From positions 1 to 22,914 of the IMG/VR virus record IMGVR_UViG_3300015263_000347: a DNA stretch of 22,914 nt. One strand, written 5' to 3'. The position numbers were made by a program, and so were the translations under genes. Shown piece by piece: positions 2,347 through 15,357 of this stretch. The notes under the pieces are model-generated. The model had not been told where the DNA came from. It saw only the letters and a program-made list of their open reading frames with translations, and did not search any database. Origin of the DNA: a virus. Each line of letters starts with the position of its first letter. Position 1 is the first letter of the stretch.

Positions 2347-2627
2347 ATTTTTCGGAAAATGTGATCGCGGCAGTACTGGGCCTGTGTCTCCACCTCATGA
2401 TCAAGTGGGCGGAGGCAAGAAAGGGCGATCAAAAACCCGGACTCATCGAGTACATCAAGACCGTACCGGCACAATCTGGGGTTGCTTTCTTTGCGGCCGC
2501 CAGCGTGTTCTGGGTTGCATATACGATGGAGTGGCTAAGCCCCGGAATGGCGTTCGCCGCCGGCTACATGGGTAACTCCTTTGCCGACAACATCGCCAAG
2601 CAGTTCTCCGTGCCGGGAGGTAAGTAA
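2343..2627 (+). CDS. Small three-segment membrane protein, holin-like
   Basis: This encodes 94 residues. Hydrophobic segments lie near residues 6-21, 46-63 and 66-82, with a basic loop (KWAEARKGDQK) between the first and second and a short charged tail. Three short helices and under 100 residues match the general build of class I phage holins, which form lethal holes in the inner membrane. However, no endolysin lies beside it, and other small phage membrane proteins look alike, so holin is a hypothesis. Translation is probably coupled to the previous gene through the ATGA overlap, and to the tailspike through TAATG at its end. Confidence 0.65.
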   Translation: MNFSENVIAAVLGLCLHLMIKWAEARKGDQKPGLIEYIKTVPAQSGVAFFAAASVFWVAYTMEWLSPGMAFAAGYMGNSFADNIAKQFSVPGGK

Positions 2628-5167
2628 TGGGCCTGATAGGTGGAAACGACGCAATTCCGAACATAGCGCCCCCAAACGAGGCGCCAGTTTGGACAAGCAC
2701 CCCAACGCCGGGATTTGTTGATGGGGTTGGCGGCACCTACGACCTGAACGCGCATGTGTTCGATGCCGAGGGAGACACCCTTACGTTCTCCCTGAACGGG
2801 GCATCTGCCGCGTTGCCAACCGGCGTTACCCTGTCATCCGCGGGCACTCTTACAGGAACCGCCAGCGTGGTTGAGGGAACAATCACCGGCATTCTGTTCG
2901 ACGTGAACGACGGTACCAACGGGGACGTGACGAGCGCCTCCGTCACCATTACTGTTACCCAGCAGGTCACCAACGCAGACCTGCGCTCGTTCGGTTACAG
3001 GTTGGTCGATGACTACGCAGGGGTAGACCCCACTGGCACGGTAGAGTGCAGCGCAGCGATCAACACCGCCATCGCCGACTCCATCGATGACGGTATTCCG
3101 CTGCTGTTCTCCGCTAATGCGGTCTATCGCTGCAACGACTCGATCCTGCTTGGAATGTTTGCCGCAAGCAATAGCACGTCCAAGCGTTTTGCGTGCTTGG
3201 GACTTGGAGGTAAGGGCACCAGTAGGGCGAGACCAAAACTCAAGCTTGATAATGGTGTAACGGCGTTCAAAAGCGGAACGGAGCGCCCGTTCGTATGTAT
3301 ACGACGTTTCACGGCTGGAGCAACCAGCTGGCCGAGCGACCCACTGAACGATTCCGGCGTGAACCAAAGTCAGGCTAACGTCCTGTTCAACTGTTACTGG
3401 CACAACATCGATATCGATTGTGGAACCGGTAACGTGGACTGCATCGGAATGTATGCGCCAGTTGCGCAGCGCTGCTTCCTGTCGGAAACAACCATTACCG
3501 CAAACGATGCAAAGGTGGGATTGCATGGTGTCGGTGGCCGCAACTCGCCGTGGATGGACCTCAAGATCATCGGCGGTGTTACCCAGATTCGCAACATGGA
3601 TATTCTGTCGCGTGACGGCTCTGGTGGATCGATGATCGCGGGTCTGGAACTTGTTGGTGACGCAAACACTGTTACGCCCATACAGACTCAGGACTTCATC
3701 CCGCTGACAATCGTTGGTTTCAAAATTACGCAGGTCAACTCGAATCCCATCTGGACCGCATACAATTTCAGCCGCACCGGTTATGGTCAGCTGGTAATGT
3801 TCGACGGACAGATCGAGACCGGCGGCGGTACGGTATTCAGCAACGCCGCCGGCAAGAACGTCTACCTGCGCAACGTGTACGTCAGCGGCAGTGACAATCT
3901 TGTACAGTCAGGTTCCGAGGCGGTGGTGACTGGTAGCGGTACGTGGAAAACCATCAATGAGTACGCGTACTGTGACCAGTCCATCGAGAATGCCGCGGCA
4001 AGCATCTACGAAACCTACAACATGCTGTCTGGCACAATCAATCGTACCAAGGAACCAGTTACGTCCATTTCCAACGCGGCTGGAGCGCCAACGGTTGATT
4101 GGGTTGCGCGTCACTCGATTATCCTGCCACGAGTCGATCAGGCCGCTTTTGAGAACATAGCCGATCACGGCGCCACAATCGGTGCAATCACACTGTCGTC
4201 GTTTGGCGCTTCCGCGGCGGAAGATTTGACAGACTCTCGGGCAGCGATTCAGGCCGCAATCACTGCGGCAGAGTCGGCCGGACACAACCGCGTGTTTTTC
4301 CCATCCGGGTGTGTGTCTGTGAGTTCTCCGGGCATTGTGATGAACGCAGACACAGTTCTGTTCGGTACGGACTTCTGGACGCCACGCATAGTTCCGCACG
4401 CAAGCTGGACGCCAACCAGTCAGGTGTATGTTGTAACAAGCGCCAACAGCGCATCTGGGGCAGCACATTACTCACAGTTGCGTATTGTCAACCCAGTCAA
4501 GAGGGCCGGAGATTCAAGCGCATCGAGCGCTGATTCAAACGACTGGTTTAGCTGGACACTATGGCAGACCGGAAAGAACTCATCCAGTGTTATGCCTCAG
4601 AGGGACAGGGAGTTCCAGACACCGTCCATTCCATGTAACCCGAAGATTGCGTACTCGTTTGCCAACAATGCCGGCGGTAAGCATTTCGGTATGAGTGACA
4701 CCGATGGCAGGCAGTTCGGTAACGTCAGTTGCAGGTCATTCAAGATAGAAAACACATTCAATCCGCTGCATCTGTATGGCTGCAACATGGAAATCTCGAA
4801 GTCAGGCGCGGTAGATGCTACAGTGAACATGGAAATCCAGAACAGCAGTAACATCAGGGTGTACAACTGTAAACGAGAGGGCCACGCAGCCACGGCGCTT
4901 ATCAACGATTCAGACAATGTGGCGTTTATGGGGTTTGGTCGTCAGGAGGCGGACGTTGCTGGATACGTGTTTCGCTTCCAAGGTGGCACTGACAACTGTC
5001 TGCTGGCGCTCGCTACTCAGGATCAGGCCGGAAAAACCACGCTAACAGGATATGGAATGCCTGAGGAAGACATCACCAGCGACCCCGGACTGAATATCAT
5101 TACATGGCCTGATGGGTGTTGCGTATACAAACGTGGCACACTCAACGATGTCGTGATGGAGATATAA
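2627..5167 (+). CDS. Tailspike: Ig-like domain plus two pectate-lyase-type beta-helix units
   Basis: This encodes 846 residues with a strong ribosome site (GGGAGGTAAG) and a TAATG overlap with the holin-like gene. Residues about 18-112 form an Ig/cadherin-like domain, with the motif DAEGDTLTFSL followed by LPTGVTLSSAGTLTGT, typical of putative Ig domains. Residues about 118-500 open with DLRSFGYRLVDDYAGVDPTG and an AAINTAIADS helix, the usual start of a pectate-lyase-3-type right-handed beta helix. A second such start occurs near residue 505 (FGASAAEDLTDSRAAIQAAI, then VFFPSG). Such proteins bind and often cut host surface polysaccharide, and work as trimers at the virion tail. No catalytic residues can be named by eye. 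Confidence 0.85.
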   Translation: MGLIGGNDAIPNIAPPNEAPVWTSTPTPGFVDGVGGTYDLNAHVFDAEGDTLTFSLNGASAALPTGVTLSSAGTLTGTASVVEGTITGILFDVNDGTNGDVTSASVTITVTQQVTNADLRSFGYRLVDDYAGVDPTGTVECSAAINTAIADSIDDGIPLLFSANAVYRCNDSILLGMFAASNSTSKRFACLGLGGKGTSRARPKLKLDNGVTAFKSGTERPFVCIRRFTAGATSWPSDPLNDSGVNQSQANVLFNCYWHNIDIDCGTGNVDCIGMYAPVAQRCFLSETTITANDAKVGLHGVGGRNSPWMDLKIIGGVTQIRNMDILSRDGSGGSMIAGLELVGDANTVTPIQTQDFIPLTIVGFKITQVNSNPIWTAYNFSRTGYGQLVMFDGQIETGGGTVFSNAAGKNVYLRNVYVSGSDNLVQSGSEAVVTGSGTWKTINEYAYCDQSIENAAASIYETYNMLSGTINRTKEPVTSISNAAGAPTVDWVARHSIILPRVDQAAFENIADHGATIGAITLSSFGASAAEDLTDSRAAIQAAITAAESAGHNRVFFPSGCVSVSSPGIVMNADTVLFGTDFWTPRIVPHASWTPTSQVYVVTSANSASGAAHYSQLRIVNPVKRAGDSSASSADSNDWFSWTLWQTGKNSSSVMPQRDREFQTPSIPCNPKIAYSFANNAGGKHFGMSDTDGRQFGNVSCRSFKIENTFNPLHLYGCNMEISKSGAVDATVNMEIQNSSNIRVYNCKREGHAATALINDSDNVAFMGFGRQEADVAGYVFRFQGGTDNCLLALATQDQAGKTTLTGYGMPEEDITSDPGLNIITWPDGCCVYKRGTLNDVVMEI

Positions 5168-8484: not shown

Positions 8485-8667
8485 ATGACCAGAGGCCAGT
8501 ACCAGTGCCAGCGGAAGGTACGGTACGAAACGAAGAAAGCCGTGCGGTGGGCCCTGCTCAGGCTTTGGAAGAAGGGAAGGCCCGAGAGATCGTTTTACCC
8601 CTGCGAGGTGTGCGGAGGGTTCCATATCACCAGCAAGGGGCCCAATGGAGGAGATCGGGAGATATGA
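8485..8667 (+). CDS. Small basic zinc-knuckle protein
   Basis: This encodes 60 residues, with GGAGGTCGAG as ribosome site. A strongly basic helical part (RKVRYETKKAVRWALLRLWKKGR) is followed by FYPCEVCGGFHITS. Cysteines 40 and 43 and histidine 47, with cysteine 8, could hold one zinc ion. The Y-x-C-x-x-CGG-aromatic-H-x-T-S motif is one I know from many small phage proteins of unknown role. The basic helix next to a metal site suggests nucleic-acid binding. Its stop overlaps the next ATG (ATGA). I am fairly confident of the family resemblance, not of function. Confidence 0.7.
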   Translation: MTRGQYQCQRKVRYETKKAVRWALLRLWKKGRPERSFYPCEVCGGFHITSKGPNGGDREI

Positions 8668-9068
8668 AACACAGGGGCAGTGATGGCGGGTCATGGTTGA
8701 GTCTGTACCTAGCCCTGTTCGCTATCGTAATGGCGCTGATATCACTCAACAGCAAGGCCGAGGACCGGGAGATTTTCGATGAGCCCGGTGTTCCAGAGCG
8801 CATCCAAAAAGACGAGCGCATCACCAGCGTGCTGATTACGTTGGTGATGTTCAAGTCATATGCGGAAATGGTCAAATACATGGAGGACGAGGATATCGAC
8901 TTCGGTTACGATGTCGAGGGCTTCAGTGACTGCGAGCTGATACCAACCCACAACACATCCCACTGCGTGGTGTATATTGTGGAGCCCGACCTAGTGGATG
9001 GCTGGAACGAACTGGTTCTTGGACACGAGGTCCTGCACGGCGTGTTTGGAGCGGAGTACCACAAGTAA
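8664..9068 (+). CDS. Exported or membrane-anchored HExxH metalloprotease-like protein
   Basis: This encodes 134 residues from the ATG at 8664 (GGAGGAGATCGGGAG upstream). The frame is open to 8505, but that part shadows the zinc-knuckle gene. The N-terminus has a basic KHR region, a hydrophobic core (residues 12-28) and S-K-A at 30-32, a possible signal peptidase site; otherwise it is a membrane anchor. Cysteines 90 and 101 could form a disulfide. The C-terminus holds GHEVLHGVFGAEYH, a HExxH zinc motif (His121, Glu122, His125) with Glu131 and His133 as possible third ligands. Related phage proteins with GHExxH near the C-terminus are usually uncharacterised. It overlaps the SPFH gene by one base (TAATG). 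Protease activity is inferred. Confidence 0.68.
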   Translation: MKHRGSDGGSWLSLYLALFAIVMALISLNSKAEDREIFDEPGVPERIQKDERITSVLITLVMFKSYAEMVKYMEDEDIDFGYDVEGFSDCELIPTHNTSHCVVYIVEPDLVDGWNELVLGHEVLHGVFGAEYHK

Positions 9069-9622
9069 TGTTCGACTGGCTCAATGACCTGATGCGATGG
9101 ATCGGAAACCTGATCCCGAGGTGGGCGCTGCTGGAAATAGACCGCGGCGGAATCAGGTTCTCCAGAAAGGGCAGGGTTGATATTCTGGAGCATGGTGTCT
9201 ACTGGTGGTGGCCGGCCACGTCTACCGTTGCAGAGATGCCTATCAAGCGGCAGACACTGTCGATGAGCCAGCGCCTGACCACCAAGGATCACTGCTCAGT
9301 GCTGGTTGGTACCGTCATTGTGTTCGAGATCAATGACGTGATCGCGGCCATGGTCAACACCAAGGACTTCGAGGACACCGTGACGGAGGTGGCCCAGAAG
9401 TTGGTAGTACAGCCCATCACGCGCCGCACGTTCGATGAGATTCTTGTTGACCTGTCGGAGTCGAACGAGATGCGCAACGAGATAGCGCGCTTGGCCAGAT
9501 CGCTGCTGAAGGACTATGGCGTATCTGTGATTGACGCCTATATATCTGATTTTGCTGAAACTACTGTCTTCAGCCACGATGGCGAGGGGATGGCAATCGG
9601 GAGGTTCGAGGATGACGTGTGA
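9068..9622 (+). CDS. SPFH/Band 7 (stomatin/prohibitin-like) protein
   Basis: This encodes 184 residues, coupled by TAATG to the HExxH gene. An amphipathic aromatic N-terminus (FDWLNDLMRWIGNLIPRW) is suited to lie in the membrane. Then comes the SPFH pattern: GGIRFSRKGRV, HGVYWWWP, an MPIKRQTLSM strand, LTTKDHCSVLVGTVIVFEI, a KDFEDTVTEVAQ helix, RRTFDEILVD and an ending strand (YGVSVIDAYISDF). SPFH proteins build large rings or microdomains on membranes and often control proteases, as HflK/HflC do with FtsH. This copy is short and lacks the long C-terminal coiled coil of flotillins. Phage SPFH proteins are known from sequence but not, as far as I know, understood. Confidence 0.82.
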   Translation: MFDWLNDLMRWIGNLIPRWALLEIDRGGIRFSRKGRVDILEHGVYWWWPATSTVAEMPIKRQTLSMSQRLTTKDHCSVLVGTVIVFEINDVIAAMVNTKDFEDTVTEVAQKLVVQPITRRTFDEILVDLSESNEMRNEIARLARSLLKDYGVSVIDAYISDFAETTVFSHDGEGMAIGRFEDDV

Positions 9623-9944
9623 GGGATGCGAGAAGCGAAAAGCGTACCTGCAGTACATTATGGGAATAATCGCCCAGTCACTGCAGAGGGCCATTCGGAG
9701 GGTATCTGGATCGGAAAGGTACCTGATACGTCATGGTGTTGCGCTGCATCAGGTCATTGAGGCTGGGTCCGCTCTGGAGCATAAATTCTCGGACCATGAA
9801 AAGGTTACGGCCAAATGGTTGGAGAACCTTCACCAGAGAGCGAACTGGCTGGAGCAGCAAAACAGTCAGCTCAGGGGTGCCGTCGCGAAGCTTTCTGATC
9901 GCGTAAAACTGATCGAGGAAAGTACCTACGGAGGTATAGAATAG
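9612..9944 (+). CDS. Coiled-coil protein with N-terminal CxxC
   Basis: This encodes 110 residues from the ATG at 9612 (GGGAGGTTCGAGG upstream), overlapping the SPFH gene by 11 bases. A start at 9531 in frame shadows the SPFH gene and lacks a site. The N-terminus is TCEGCEKRKAYLQYIMGII, a CxxC with basic residues as seen at the start of many small phage proteins. After a basic helix, residues about 55-105 form a likely coiled coil (HEKVTAKWLENLHQRANWLE, then QQNSQLRGAVAKLSDRVKLI). SPFH proteins normally carry a coiled coil after the domain, and here one is supplied by the adjacent gene. A partnership is possible but unproven. Confidence 0.65.
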   Translation: MTCEGCEKRKAYLQYIMGIIAQSLQRAIRRVSGSERYLIRHGVALHQVIEAGSALEHKFSDHEKVTAKWLENLHQRANWLEQQNSQLRGAVAKLSDRVKLIEESTYGGIE

Positions 9945-10124: not shown

Positions 10125-10221
10125 TACAATCACGCTTGCCGCGGCATTGCTCCTGATCGGGGCTGTCGCCCTGTATTGCTGGTGGAGCAAGTGTGACTCT
10201 AGAACAAGGCGTCCCTCGTAA
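10111..10221 (+). CDS. 36-residue membrane micropeptide
   Basis: A very short reading frame from the ATG at 10111 to TAA at 10219. The product has one hydrophobic segment (TITLAAALLLIGAVALYCWW, residues 6-25) and a short basic tail. It overlaps the gene before by 14 bases and the terminase start by 29 bases in another frame. The hydrophobic core and the packed layout suggest a real membrane peptide, though at this length chance is possible. The upstream bases AAAGAAAAGC give only a weak ribosome site. Confidence 0.42.
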   Translation: MGIGDTITLAAALLLIGAVALYCWWSKCDSRTRRPS

Positions 10222-11854
10222 CCTGACACTCGTTCAGGCCGAACTCGCAAGACGCAGTCTATTCAAGTTCTTCAAGGCGGCGTGGCCCTACATGGACCCT
10301 GCCCCGTTCTGCGATACGTGGCACCTTGAGGTCATCTGCGAGTTCCTGACCTACGTCACCATCGGCGACATCAAGCGCCTCATCGTATCGATGCCACCTC
10401 GAATGACAAAGTCCTTGTCATGTTCGGTGGCGTGGCCGGTGTGGTCGTGGATCGACACACCAGAGACACAGTTCCTGACATCCTCCTACGACCTGTCACT
10501 GTCAACCCGAGACGCGCTCAAGTCCCGTCGCCTGATTGACTCAACGTGGTTTCAGGAGAGGTGGGGCGATTGCTTTTCCCTGCGTGACGACGAGAATCTC
10601 AAGGGCAGGTACTCCAACACCATGGGCGGCCACAGGATCGCCATCACGTCGGGCGGTAAGACAACCGGTGAGGGTGGCGACATCATCCTGCTGGACGACT
10701 CCCACAACGCGCGAGAGGCCTACTCAGACACCAAGCGCGAGAACATCATCGAGTGGTACGACAACGCCATGAGGTCCCGCCTGAACAACCAGAACACTGG
10801 CAGGATCGTGCATGTCGGGCAGCGCGTGCACGAGCTGGATGTCATCGGCCACGTCATCAAGAAGCAGGGCCGCTGCACAGTGCAGGACAACGGAGAGTGG
10901 GTCCATCTGGTCATGCCGAACGAGTTCATACCAGAGAAACGATGCCGGGTGTGGATGCCTCAGGACGTGAAGCGCTACCACAACCTGAAGAAGCTCGGGA
11001 AGGACGTTGAGGAGCCAGAGCCCTTCTTCGAGGACCCGCGCACCGAGAAAGACGAGCTGCTGTGCCCCGGCCGCCTTGACCGGGAAGCAACCCTCAATCT
11101 GAAGCCGCCGCTTGGTATGAGCCAGCGCGACTACAACTCCCAGTACCAGCAGGACCCAGCCGCCGACGACGGCCTGATCCTCAAGCGCTCTTGGTGGCAG
11201 CCGTGGGAGTGGCCTGCGTGGCACCCGGAATCGCACAAGCGCCGCCCAATGCCGGAGTGCGAGGCCATCATCCAGATATACGACACCGCGTTCGAGGAGG
11301 CCGAGGAGAACGACTACAGCGCCCGCACGACGTGGGGCGTGTTCATGTACACACCGGAACGCATGCATCCCAGCACGAAGGTCCTGATCCGCGGACAGGA
11401 GAAGAGATGCCTGATCCTGCTGGAGGCTTGGCACGATAAGGTCAATTTCCCAGACCTGAGACGGGAGGCCATCCGTGCCTACGATGACTGGCATCCGGAT
11501 ATGGTGCTGGTTGAGAAGAAGGCCTCAGGCCACTCCCTGATTCAGGAGCTTCGTCAGTCAGGCGTGCCTGTCAAGTGGGTCGATCCCAAGAGCAAGGACA
11601 AGGTCATGCGTGCGCACATGTCCTCCGGGCCGCTTGAGCAGGGCTGCGTATTCGTCGTACCGGGACACGATGAGGGCCAACAGGTCATTGAGGAGTGCGC
11701 AAAGTTCCCCATGGGCGAGCACGATGACTGGGTGGATACATGCGTAATCGGCTTCGCGTTCCTTCGCAGGATAGGTTCCATCGAATACTTCGATGAGGAT
11801 GAGGGTGAAATGAACCTGTTCAAGCCGAGACGCGAACGGTCGATTTACGGGTAG
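10193..11854 (+). CDS. terL: Terminase large subunit (packaging ATPase and nuclease)
   Basis: This encodes 553 residues and begins with GTG at 10193, with GGTGGAGCAA upstream. The enzyme pumps DNA into the prohead and cuts concatemers. Walker A is the variant MPPRMTKS at residues 67-74 (the usual form is PPRHGKS), and Walker B is DIILLDD at 163-169. The C-terminal nuclease of RNase H fold shows the expected acidic residues: Asp364 in QIYDTAFE, Glu441 in LVEKKASG, and an HDDWVD cluster at 510-515. The length is ordinary for the family. No small subunit is recognisable just upstream, though one of the small genes before it might serve. The portal gene follows after one small gene. Confidence 0.95.
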   Translation: MTLEQGVPRNLTLVQAELARRSLFKFFKAAWPYMDPAPFCDTWHLEVICEFLTYVTIGDIKRLIVSMPPRMTKSLSCSVAWPVWSWIDTPETQFLTSSYDLSLSTRDALKSRRLIDSTWFQERWGDCFSLRDDENLKGRYSNTMGGHRIAITSGGKTTGEGGDIILLDDSHNAREAYSDTKRENIIEWYDNAMRSRLNNQNTGRIVHVGQRVHELDVIGHVIKKQGRCTVQDNGEWVHLVMPNEFIPEKRCRVWMPQDVKRYHNLKKLGKDVEEPEPFFEDPRTEKDELLCPGRLDREATLNLKPPLGMSQRDYNSQYQQDPAADDGLILKRSWWQPWEWPAWHPESHKRRPMPECEAIIQIYDTAFEEAEENDYSARTTWGVFMYTPERMHPSTKVLIRGQEKRCLILLEAWHDKVNFPDLRREAIRAYDDWHPDMVLVEKKASGHSLIQELRQSGVPVKWVDPKSKDKVMRAHMSSGPLEQGCVFVVPGHDEGQQVIEECAKFPMGEHDDWVDTCVIGFAFLRRIGSIEYFDEDEGEMNLFKPRRERSIYG

Positions 11855-14752: not shown

Positions 14753-14983
14753 ATGACGATACAAAGCTTTTCTGGGGTGTCATGGCTACATGATCGCCTG
14801 ATCCAGATACTGGACGAGCGCGCAACGACTCTCGCTGAGGGTGTCGCTAACGGCGTTCCAGAGGCCGAATACAGGCAGTTCGTTGGGCGCTACCGTGAGT
14901 GCAAGCGCTTTCGAGATGACGTGATACCGGAACTGTTTATCGAGTTCTACAAGAGCGACGAGGACGAGGAGGACGACGAGTGA
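14753..14983 (+). CDS. Small acidic-tailed hypothetical protein
   Basis: This encodes 76 residues with a good ribosome site (TGGGAGGCATCA). The body is helical (SWLHDRLIQILDERATTLAE, GVPEAEYRQFVGRYRECKRF, IPELFIEFYK) and the end is an acidic run (SDEDEEDDE). One cysteine; no membrane segment. The acidic codons overlap the purine-rich ribosome site of the next gene, and the stop overlaps the GTG of the co-chaperonin by four bases, so translation is probably coupled. A size and shape like this is common beside phage head genes; function unknown. Confidence 0.7.
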   Translation: MTIQSFSGVSWLHDRLIQILDERATTLAEGVANGVPEAEYRQFVGRYRECKRFRDDVIPELFIEFYKSDEDEEDDE

Positions 14984-15357
14984 GTTCTGACTACGTACCC
15001 ATCCCGGTTGGATGGAAGGTCATCATAGAGCCCAAGCAGGGCGTTACTGTCACTGAGGCAGGTATTGACATCAGCGTCACGGTAGAGTCTCAGGAACACC
15101 TGATCTACCTCGGCAAGATCGTCGCCATGGGAGAGGCTGCGTTCATGGCCAGCACCAAGGGCGGGATCGACATGTCCAAGTGGGAGCGCAGGCCGCAGGT
15201 TGGTGACTACGTCATTTATTCTCCGTACGGTGGAATCCGGATACGCCGTACCGAGCGTGACGGAAAGAAACGTCCGATCCTGCTCCTGTTCAACGACACC
15301 GACATTCACGCCATCATCGATGACCCCGACAAGTACTTCTCGTGGGTTGACGCATAG
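14980..15357 (+). CDS. GroES-like co-chaperonin (Cpn10)
   Basis: This encodes 125 residues from a GTG at 14980 with AGGAGG just upstream. The fold pattern follows GroES: opening IPVGWKVIIEPK, a mobile-loop-like GIDISVTVES with I-D-I in place of the GroEL-binding I-V-L, then LIYLGKIVAMGE, PQVGDYVIYSPYGGIRI and the end ILLLFNDTDIHAIID. GroES itself is 97 residues; the extra length lies in an insert (about 52-68) and a C-terminal tail. T4 gp31 replaces GroES so that host GroEL can fold the T4 capsid protein. The same role for this capsid, whose gene lies 2.4 kb downstream, is inferred. No GroEL gene is in the window. Confidence 0.85.
   Translation: MSSDYVPIPVGWKVIIEPKQGVTVTEAGIDISVTVESQEHLIYLGKIVAMGEAAFMASTKGGIDMSKWERRPQVGDYVIYSPYGGIRIRRTERDGKKRPILLLFNDTDIHAIIDDPDKYFSWVDA

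Follow-up and report, generated by a model that had tools for sequence, protein, structure and literature searches.

Adjacent genes for an exported HExxH protein and an SPFH-only protein in a lineage of tailed phages: probably two accessory genes, not one system

An environmental virus fragment of 22,914 nucleotides (22.9 kb; hereafter the window) carries two overlapping genes, one for a small protein with an HExxH zinc motif and one for a protein of the SPFH/Band 7 group. The pair appears to belong to a cluster of small genes just upstream of the gene for the terminase large subunit (terL, 10193..11854), which serves as the synteny anchor across relatives, in a lineage of uncultured tailed phages. 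The locus raises the question of whether the two products form a single protease-SPFH system, as a preliminary description of the sequence had proposed, or are neighbours only. The answer favoured here, with some reserve, is that they are probably two separate accessory genes, adjacent by inheritance and not parts of one machine.

The gene of the HExxH protein (P0001, 134 aa) occupies 8664..9068, and that of the SPFH protein (P0002, 184 aa) occupies 9068..9622; both lie on the plus strand, as do their subfeatures, the flanking genes and terL. The stop codon of the first (9066-9068) and the ATG of the second (9068-9070) share one base in the TAATG at 9066..9070, exactly as the preliminary description gave the coordinates, lengths and overlap. 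This one-base overlap is ordinary for the window genome and the coupling is not special, because 13 of the 33 adjacent gene pairs in the window overlap or abut. Overlaps occur also at both flanks of the pair. The upstream gene for a 60-aa Cys/His protein (CxxC...H; 8485..8667) runs 4 bases into the HExxH gene at 8664, and the downstream gene (9612..9944), whose 110-aa product carries an N-terminal CxxC and probably a coiled coil, shares 11 bases with the end of the SPFH gene at 9622.

P0001 has the features of a small exported protein. A hydrophobic signal or anchor helix is found at residues 10-28 (8691..8747), with a maximum Kyte-Doolittle score of 2.18, followed by a possible signal-peptidase I site, SKA/ED, which was judged by eye; the mature protein would comprise residues 33-134. 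The C-terminus reads GHEVLHGVFGAEYH and the protein ends as G120-HEVLHGVFGAEYH-K. Both the signal or anchor segment and the C-terminal GHEVLHG with E122 (residues 120-126) were correctly named in the preliminary description. The putative zinc site HEVLHGVFGAEYH, a conserved motif, spans residues 121-133 (9024..9062), where H121, H125 and H133 would be the ligands and E122 the base. Among the 34 predicted proteins of the window, HExxH occurs in P0001 only, with 0.16 occurrences expected from composition. As P0001 ends just past the third His, the active site may be incomplete.

Profile and sequence searches place P0001 in no described family. Pfam gave none at E up to 1, NfeD and SprT/WLM included, NCBIfam gave no match, and PADLOC gave no defence match for P0001 or P0002. 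P0001, P0002 and P0004 had no tblastn match among 50,697 phage records, and a scan of viral contigs with the single P0001 sequence found no relatives. The AF2 model of P0001 (mean pLDDT 84.8) consists of the helix 10-28 and a compact core at residues 52-132, with a strand at 55-63, a helix at 66-75, strands at 86-93 and 98-106, and the HExxH helix at 114-128. The predicted core is thus beta-alpha-beta-beta-alpha(HExxH). Foldseek of this model against the PDB gave no match with E below 0.001, and only GTPase-like matches at chance level. VIA-align gave weak matches to the peptidase domains of collagenase T (Z 4.1) and collagenase H (Z 3.8), and to selecase MJ1213 (Z 2.7, rmsd 3.5 over 59 aligned residues). 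Selecase MJ1213 is also the top match of the HExxH-family profile against PDB sequences (E 0.06), with GHEllHClYGsYH aligned with AHELLHLKYGKYH. That two different methods, one applied to a model and one to sequences, name the same small metallopeptidase is suggestive, though short of proof. P0001 is best read as a minimal zincin with three His and one putative catalytic Glu, nearest to the selecase, SprT and WLM-type folds, and would be expected to act as a peptidase. Because all fold matches of P0001 are weak (Z under 5), this reading rests mainly on the motif. Mini-zincins of ~110 residues that lack a Met-turn exist (PMC3890501), and WLM/SprT domains have been described as resembling minigluzincins (PMC4559962).

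Compared with selecase and the minigluzincins, and with the SprT/WLM zincins, P0001 has the same small single-domain scale, a similar motif (HELLHLKYGKYH vs GHELLHCLYGSYH), and the weak independent profile and structure matches given above. In contrast, the phage proteins are predicted to be exported or lipoproteins, end right after the third His, and have no significant family match. A secreted phage-derived metzincin of Listeria, part of a metzincin/TIMP-like pair, raises sensitivity to phage lysins (PMC8235301). It resembles P0001 in its phage origin, its secretion and the third His after HExxH, but is of a different family. Metzincins have HExxHxxGxxH and a Met-turn, whereas the phage family has HExxHx6H or HExxHx7H, a spacing one or two residues longer, and stops at the third His or shortly past it, which leaves no room for a Met-turn. 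A pelagiphage gene directly upstream of terL (HTVC023P gp28; L143 9287-9733) encodes a protein of a different family with the zinc-protease-like motif HELGHSVFNLPHDKKCKLM, in HExxHx6H spacing.

The SPFH pattern named for the second protein is solid. P0002 scores 57.1 bits (E 3.1e-15) with Pfam Band_7, whose cut-off is 23.6, over residues 30-162 (9155..9553), and its AF2 model (mean pLDDT 70, built from 7 sequences) matches stomatin, HflK/C and prohibitin in Foldseek, with stomatin the best at E 7.7e-10. An N-terminal amphipathic helix is predicted at residues 3-14 (9074..9109). Neither a signal nor a transmembrane segment is predicted, and KD19 is at most 0.84 in the first 45 residues. The protein ends ~20 residues past the last SPFH strand, in a tail with no predicted structure, and its homologues are alike. 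The C-terminal wall/cap helices or coiled coil expected after SPFH2 are absent from the model and from the homologues; P0002 stops where the wall/cap helices and barrel of stomatin start, parts described as central to oligomerisation (PMC12344292). As modelled, P0002 is an SPFH-domain-only form that lacks the C-terminal oligomerisation region.

This form sets P0002 apart from known SPFH systems. It has the SPFH fold in common with HflK/HflC and stomatin/NfeD (QmcA-YbbJ), but it has no cage-forming C-terminus, it falls well under the NCBIfam HflK/HflC equivalog cut-offs (25.2 vs 159.4 and 21.5 vs 134.4 bits), and its gene neighbour is neither NfeD nor FtsH. P0002 matches PHROG 200 ('lipoprotein'), the SPFH proteins of T4-like phages, at 1.5e-4. 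In one of these, Aeh1p069 (315 aa), the N-terminal segment is hydrophobic and a long C-terminal region follows the SPFH domain; P0002 has neither feature. Phage SPFH genes have been reported before with no role given (PMC1524935; PMC13239085), and the SPFH domain-only form would be a simple tool for studying their function. In Aeromonas phage Aeh1 (L157 32466-33347, 33794-34741), a SHEVAH-motif protein, apparently the SprT-family one of the 2006 paper, is encoded two genes from the SPFH 'lipoprotein'. This is another metallopeptidase near SPFH in a phage, but the families are different and it was not counted as support for the pair.

The first close relatives of the pair were reached through the SPFH gene. 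The relative of P0002 in L001 (52% identical) came from a protein scan, and the one in L003 (60% identical) from a two-row profile. In both, the gene immediately upstream of SPFH encodes an HExxH protein, complete in L001 (P0003) and a C-terminal piece in L003 (P0008), with the motifs GHEVIHCVYGPNYH and GHEVLHGVYGPDYH, respectively. GHEVxHxVxGxxYH is conserved in the two, and this is a fair test of conservation because neither was found through the motif. The possibility raised in the preliminary description, that homologues might not keep the HExxH residues, is contradicted by these two proteins and by the wider family. A pattern scan added L009, whose contig ends within the SPFH gene, and L011, which holds the whole pair. 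The HExxH/SPFH junctions vary little: the genes overlap by 1 base in the window and by 4 in L003 and L011, abut in L001, and lie 2 bases apart in L009. Within the lineage, terL identity is 72-77%. Adjacency of the pair is found in five of the six informative close relatives (the window, L001, L003, L009 and L011) and not in L149; L152, which starts within the SPFH gene, was left out as uninformative. L001 (3312-4118), L009 (2556-3413) and L011 (6186-6980, minus strand) encode a protein with the calcineurin-like phosphoesterase motifs GNHE and GHTHH a few genes ahead of the pair; in the window, none was seen among the genes predicted immediately before the pair.

The HExxH protein belongs to a much wider family than this lineage. 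Weak tblastn matches of P0003 to the Alteromonas phages PT11-V22 and PT15-A5 and to phage C48C1 opened it, and a degenerate DNA pattern scan of viral contigs gave at least 120 stretches, or 66 representatives at 70% identity, 52 of which have a lipobox. The PT11-V22 homologue is ORF25, in a phage that is available as an isolate with its host. The family profile A4 recovers P0001, itself a member of A4, at E 4.6e-21. Loci from the pattern scan carry the motif by construction, and a scan with only the sequence upstream of the motif is the fairer conservation test. It found 21 loci with 17 distinct proteins, and the motif is intact in 17 of 17; the seeds came from the earlier motif scan, so that this tests for motif-less relatives in a sample that is not fully independent. 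The family motif is GHExxHxxxGx(2-3)H; 92 sequences have the spacing HExxHxxxGxxH, and the five of the lineage are one residue longer there. Pfam gave no convincing match, with SprT-like at 0.032 in one of 63 members, and PHROG matches are few and weak. For one member there is a match to the Cor superinfection exclusion PHROG (6e-5), over a stretch that may be the signal peptide only. The neighbourhoods have no single theme: some members lie beside endolysin, holin or tail-fibre genes, and most lie away from lysis genes, with nucleases, helicases and tail genes as neighbours. A gene for an HslV-like peptidase lies near or next to the HExxH gene in L049, L051 and L114, with PHROG 1040 in two neighbours. 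Bacterial and archaeal genomes, when scanned, yielded three MAG contigs only, too few to point to a host. No published description of the HExxH family was found in the open-licence literature. Many unrelated phages thus appear to export a protein of ~100 residues with an intact protease signature; Pfam has no family for it, and its PHROG matches are marginal. If the family is a protease, the host envelope would be a common destination of minimal phage metalloproteases, and the substrate would make a tractable, informative question.

The next question is whether the two genes go together. A profile built from five SPFH sequences found L149, a 74.7-kb record with a terL 72% identical to that of the window. 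Its Zn-ribbon gene, the homologue of the 60-aa Cys/His gene, directly abuts SPFH (stop 4989-4991, ATG 4992), where elsewhere the HExxH gene lies between. The HExxH profile detected no family gene anywhere in the record, which is possibly an incomplete genome; the same profile detects one in the window, G003, G004 and G085. SPFH does not, therefore, require the HExxH gene, and the independence in related phages that the preliminary description had named as counting against its proposal is found for SPFH. As the terL tree is a star, gain and loss of the HExxH gene at L149 are not distinguishable. The unrelated phage G085 carries an SPFH gene of the window's subfamily (45% identical) in its replication region, and its HExxH gene lies ~16 kb away. 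Overall, six of the seven informative records of this SPFH subfamily have an HExxH gene somewhere. Outside the lineage, only four of the 96 HExxH-family records (G017, G033, G083 and G085) have a Band_7 gene above the cut-off, the other 92 have none, and an SPFH gene adjacent to or near the HExxH gene was seen in none of the 96, many of which are fragments. Together with L149, these records speak for independence of the two genes. The distant terL relatives CRP-901 and HTVC023P have neither SPFH nor an HExxH-family match.

In a joint protease-scaffold module, SPFH would organise the membrane and the anchored HExxH protein would act on the substrates gathered there, as a minimal analogue of HflKC-FtsH or stomatin-NfeD. 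If true, this would be a novel way in which phages control the quality of the host membrane. Such a module would account for the conserved adjacency, with an overlap or at most 2 bases between the genes, and for the presence of both families, though unlinked, in G085. However, it is quite improbable. L149 has no detected HExxH gene, and most of the HExxH family occurs without SPFH. P0002 is without the cage-building parts of stomatin (PMC12344292), and gene coupling is ordinary in the window genome. Moreover, the predicted sites are opposite: P0001 would lie outside the inner membrane, and P0002 has no export signal. A complex of the two is argued against by these predicted sites, the periplasm and the cytoplasmic membrane face. 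Of the joint reading, then, the two real proteins and their adjacency stand, and the single system is unsupported. Adjacency is weak evidence for partnership because gene order is conserved in the lineage and overlaps are common; even so, a weak or loose functional link could explain both the adjacency and the co-carriage, and L149 could carry a non-homologous substitute for the HExxH protein. A combined form, in which the exported zincin family acts on the host envelope and, in this lineage, works with an SPFH-only protein that enters and disables host SPFH cages, the two together altering host membrane proteolysis, is the most doubtful of all the readings.

Under the preferred reading of two separate accessory genes, P0001 would be an exported minimal zincin that crosses the inner membrane, with zinc presumably held by H121, H125 and H133 and E122 as the likely general base. 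It would most likely clip host envelope proteins late in infection, possibly to make lysis easier or to remove or modify a receptor. P0002 probably uses its amphipathic helix to sit at the cytoplasmic side of the inner membrane and, with its C-terminal oligomerisation parts lost, may join or block host SPFH rings. Their adjacency would reflect inherited gene order and tight packing, with no required partnership. A narrower form of this reading takes the HExxH protein as a lysis factor that breaches the envelope by cleaving lipoproteins or peptidoglycan-bound proteins, in keeping with the members beside endolysin or holin genes and with the Listeria metzincin that enhances phage lysis (PMC8235301). 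This is unlikely, as the majority of the family is not beside lysis genes and the window pair adjoins terL. To a similar degree it is unlikely that P0001 binds metal without being a protease, serving in the envelope as a small (lipo)protein that keeps out a superinfecting phage or blocks a receptor, with HExxHxxxGxxH as a structural zinc site. Its size and the lipobox resemble those of phage exclusion lipoproteins, the Cor match points the same way, and a confident peptidase fold match is absent. On the other hand, every relative seen, including those found without the motif, retains the HExxH Glu, which a structural site would not need.

Several other genes of the locus and the window deserve mention. 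The 60-aa protein at 8485-8667 has the Cys/His pattern YxCxxCxGFH and weak matches to PHROG 3424/15216, which have no assigned function, and its gene is kept upstream of the pair in L011 and upstream of SPFH in L149. The CxxC/coiled-coil gene that follows SPFH (9612-9944) has homologues in L001, L003 and L011, and could provide the parts missing from the SPFH-only protein. In L003 and L011, an extra coiled-coil-like gene lies between the two. Elsewhere in the window, 2627-5167 encodes a tail-spike-like protein with a pectate-lyase fold and an Ig-like domain (Pfam). A GroES/Cpn10-like co-chaperonin gene is found at 14980-15357 upstream of the capsid gene (Pfam 4.6e-6, above cut-off), and a GroES gene is annotated too in the terL relatives CRP-901 and HTVC023P.
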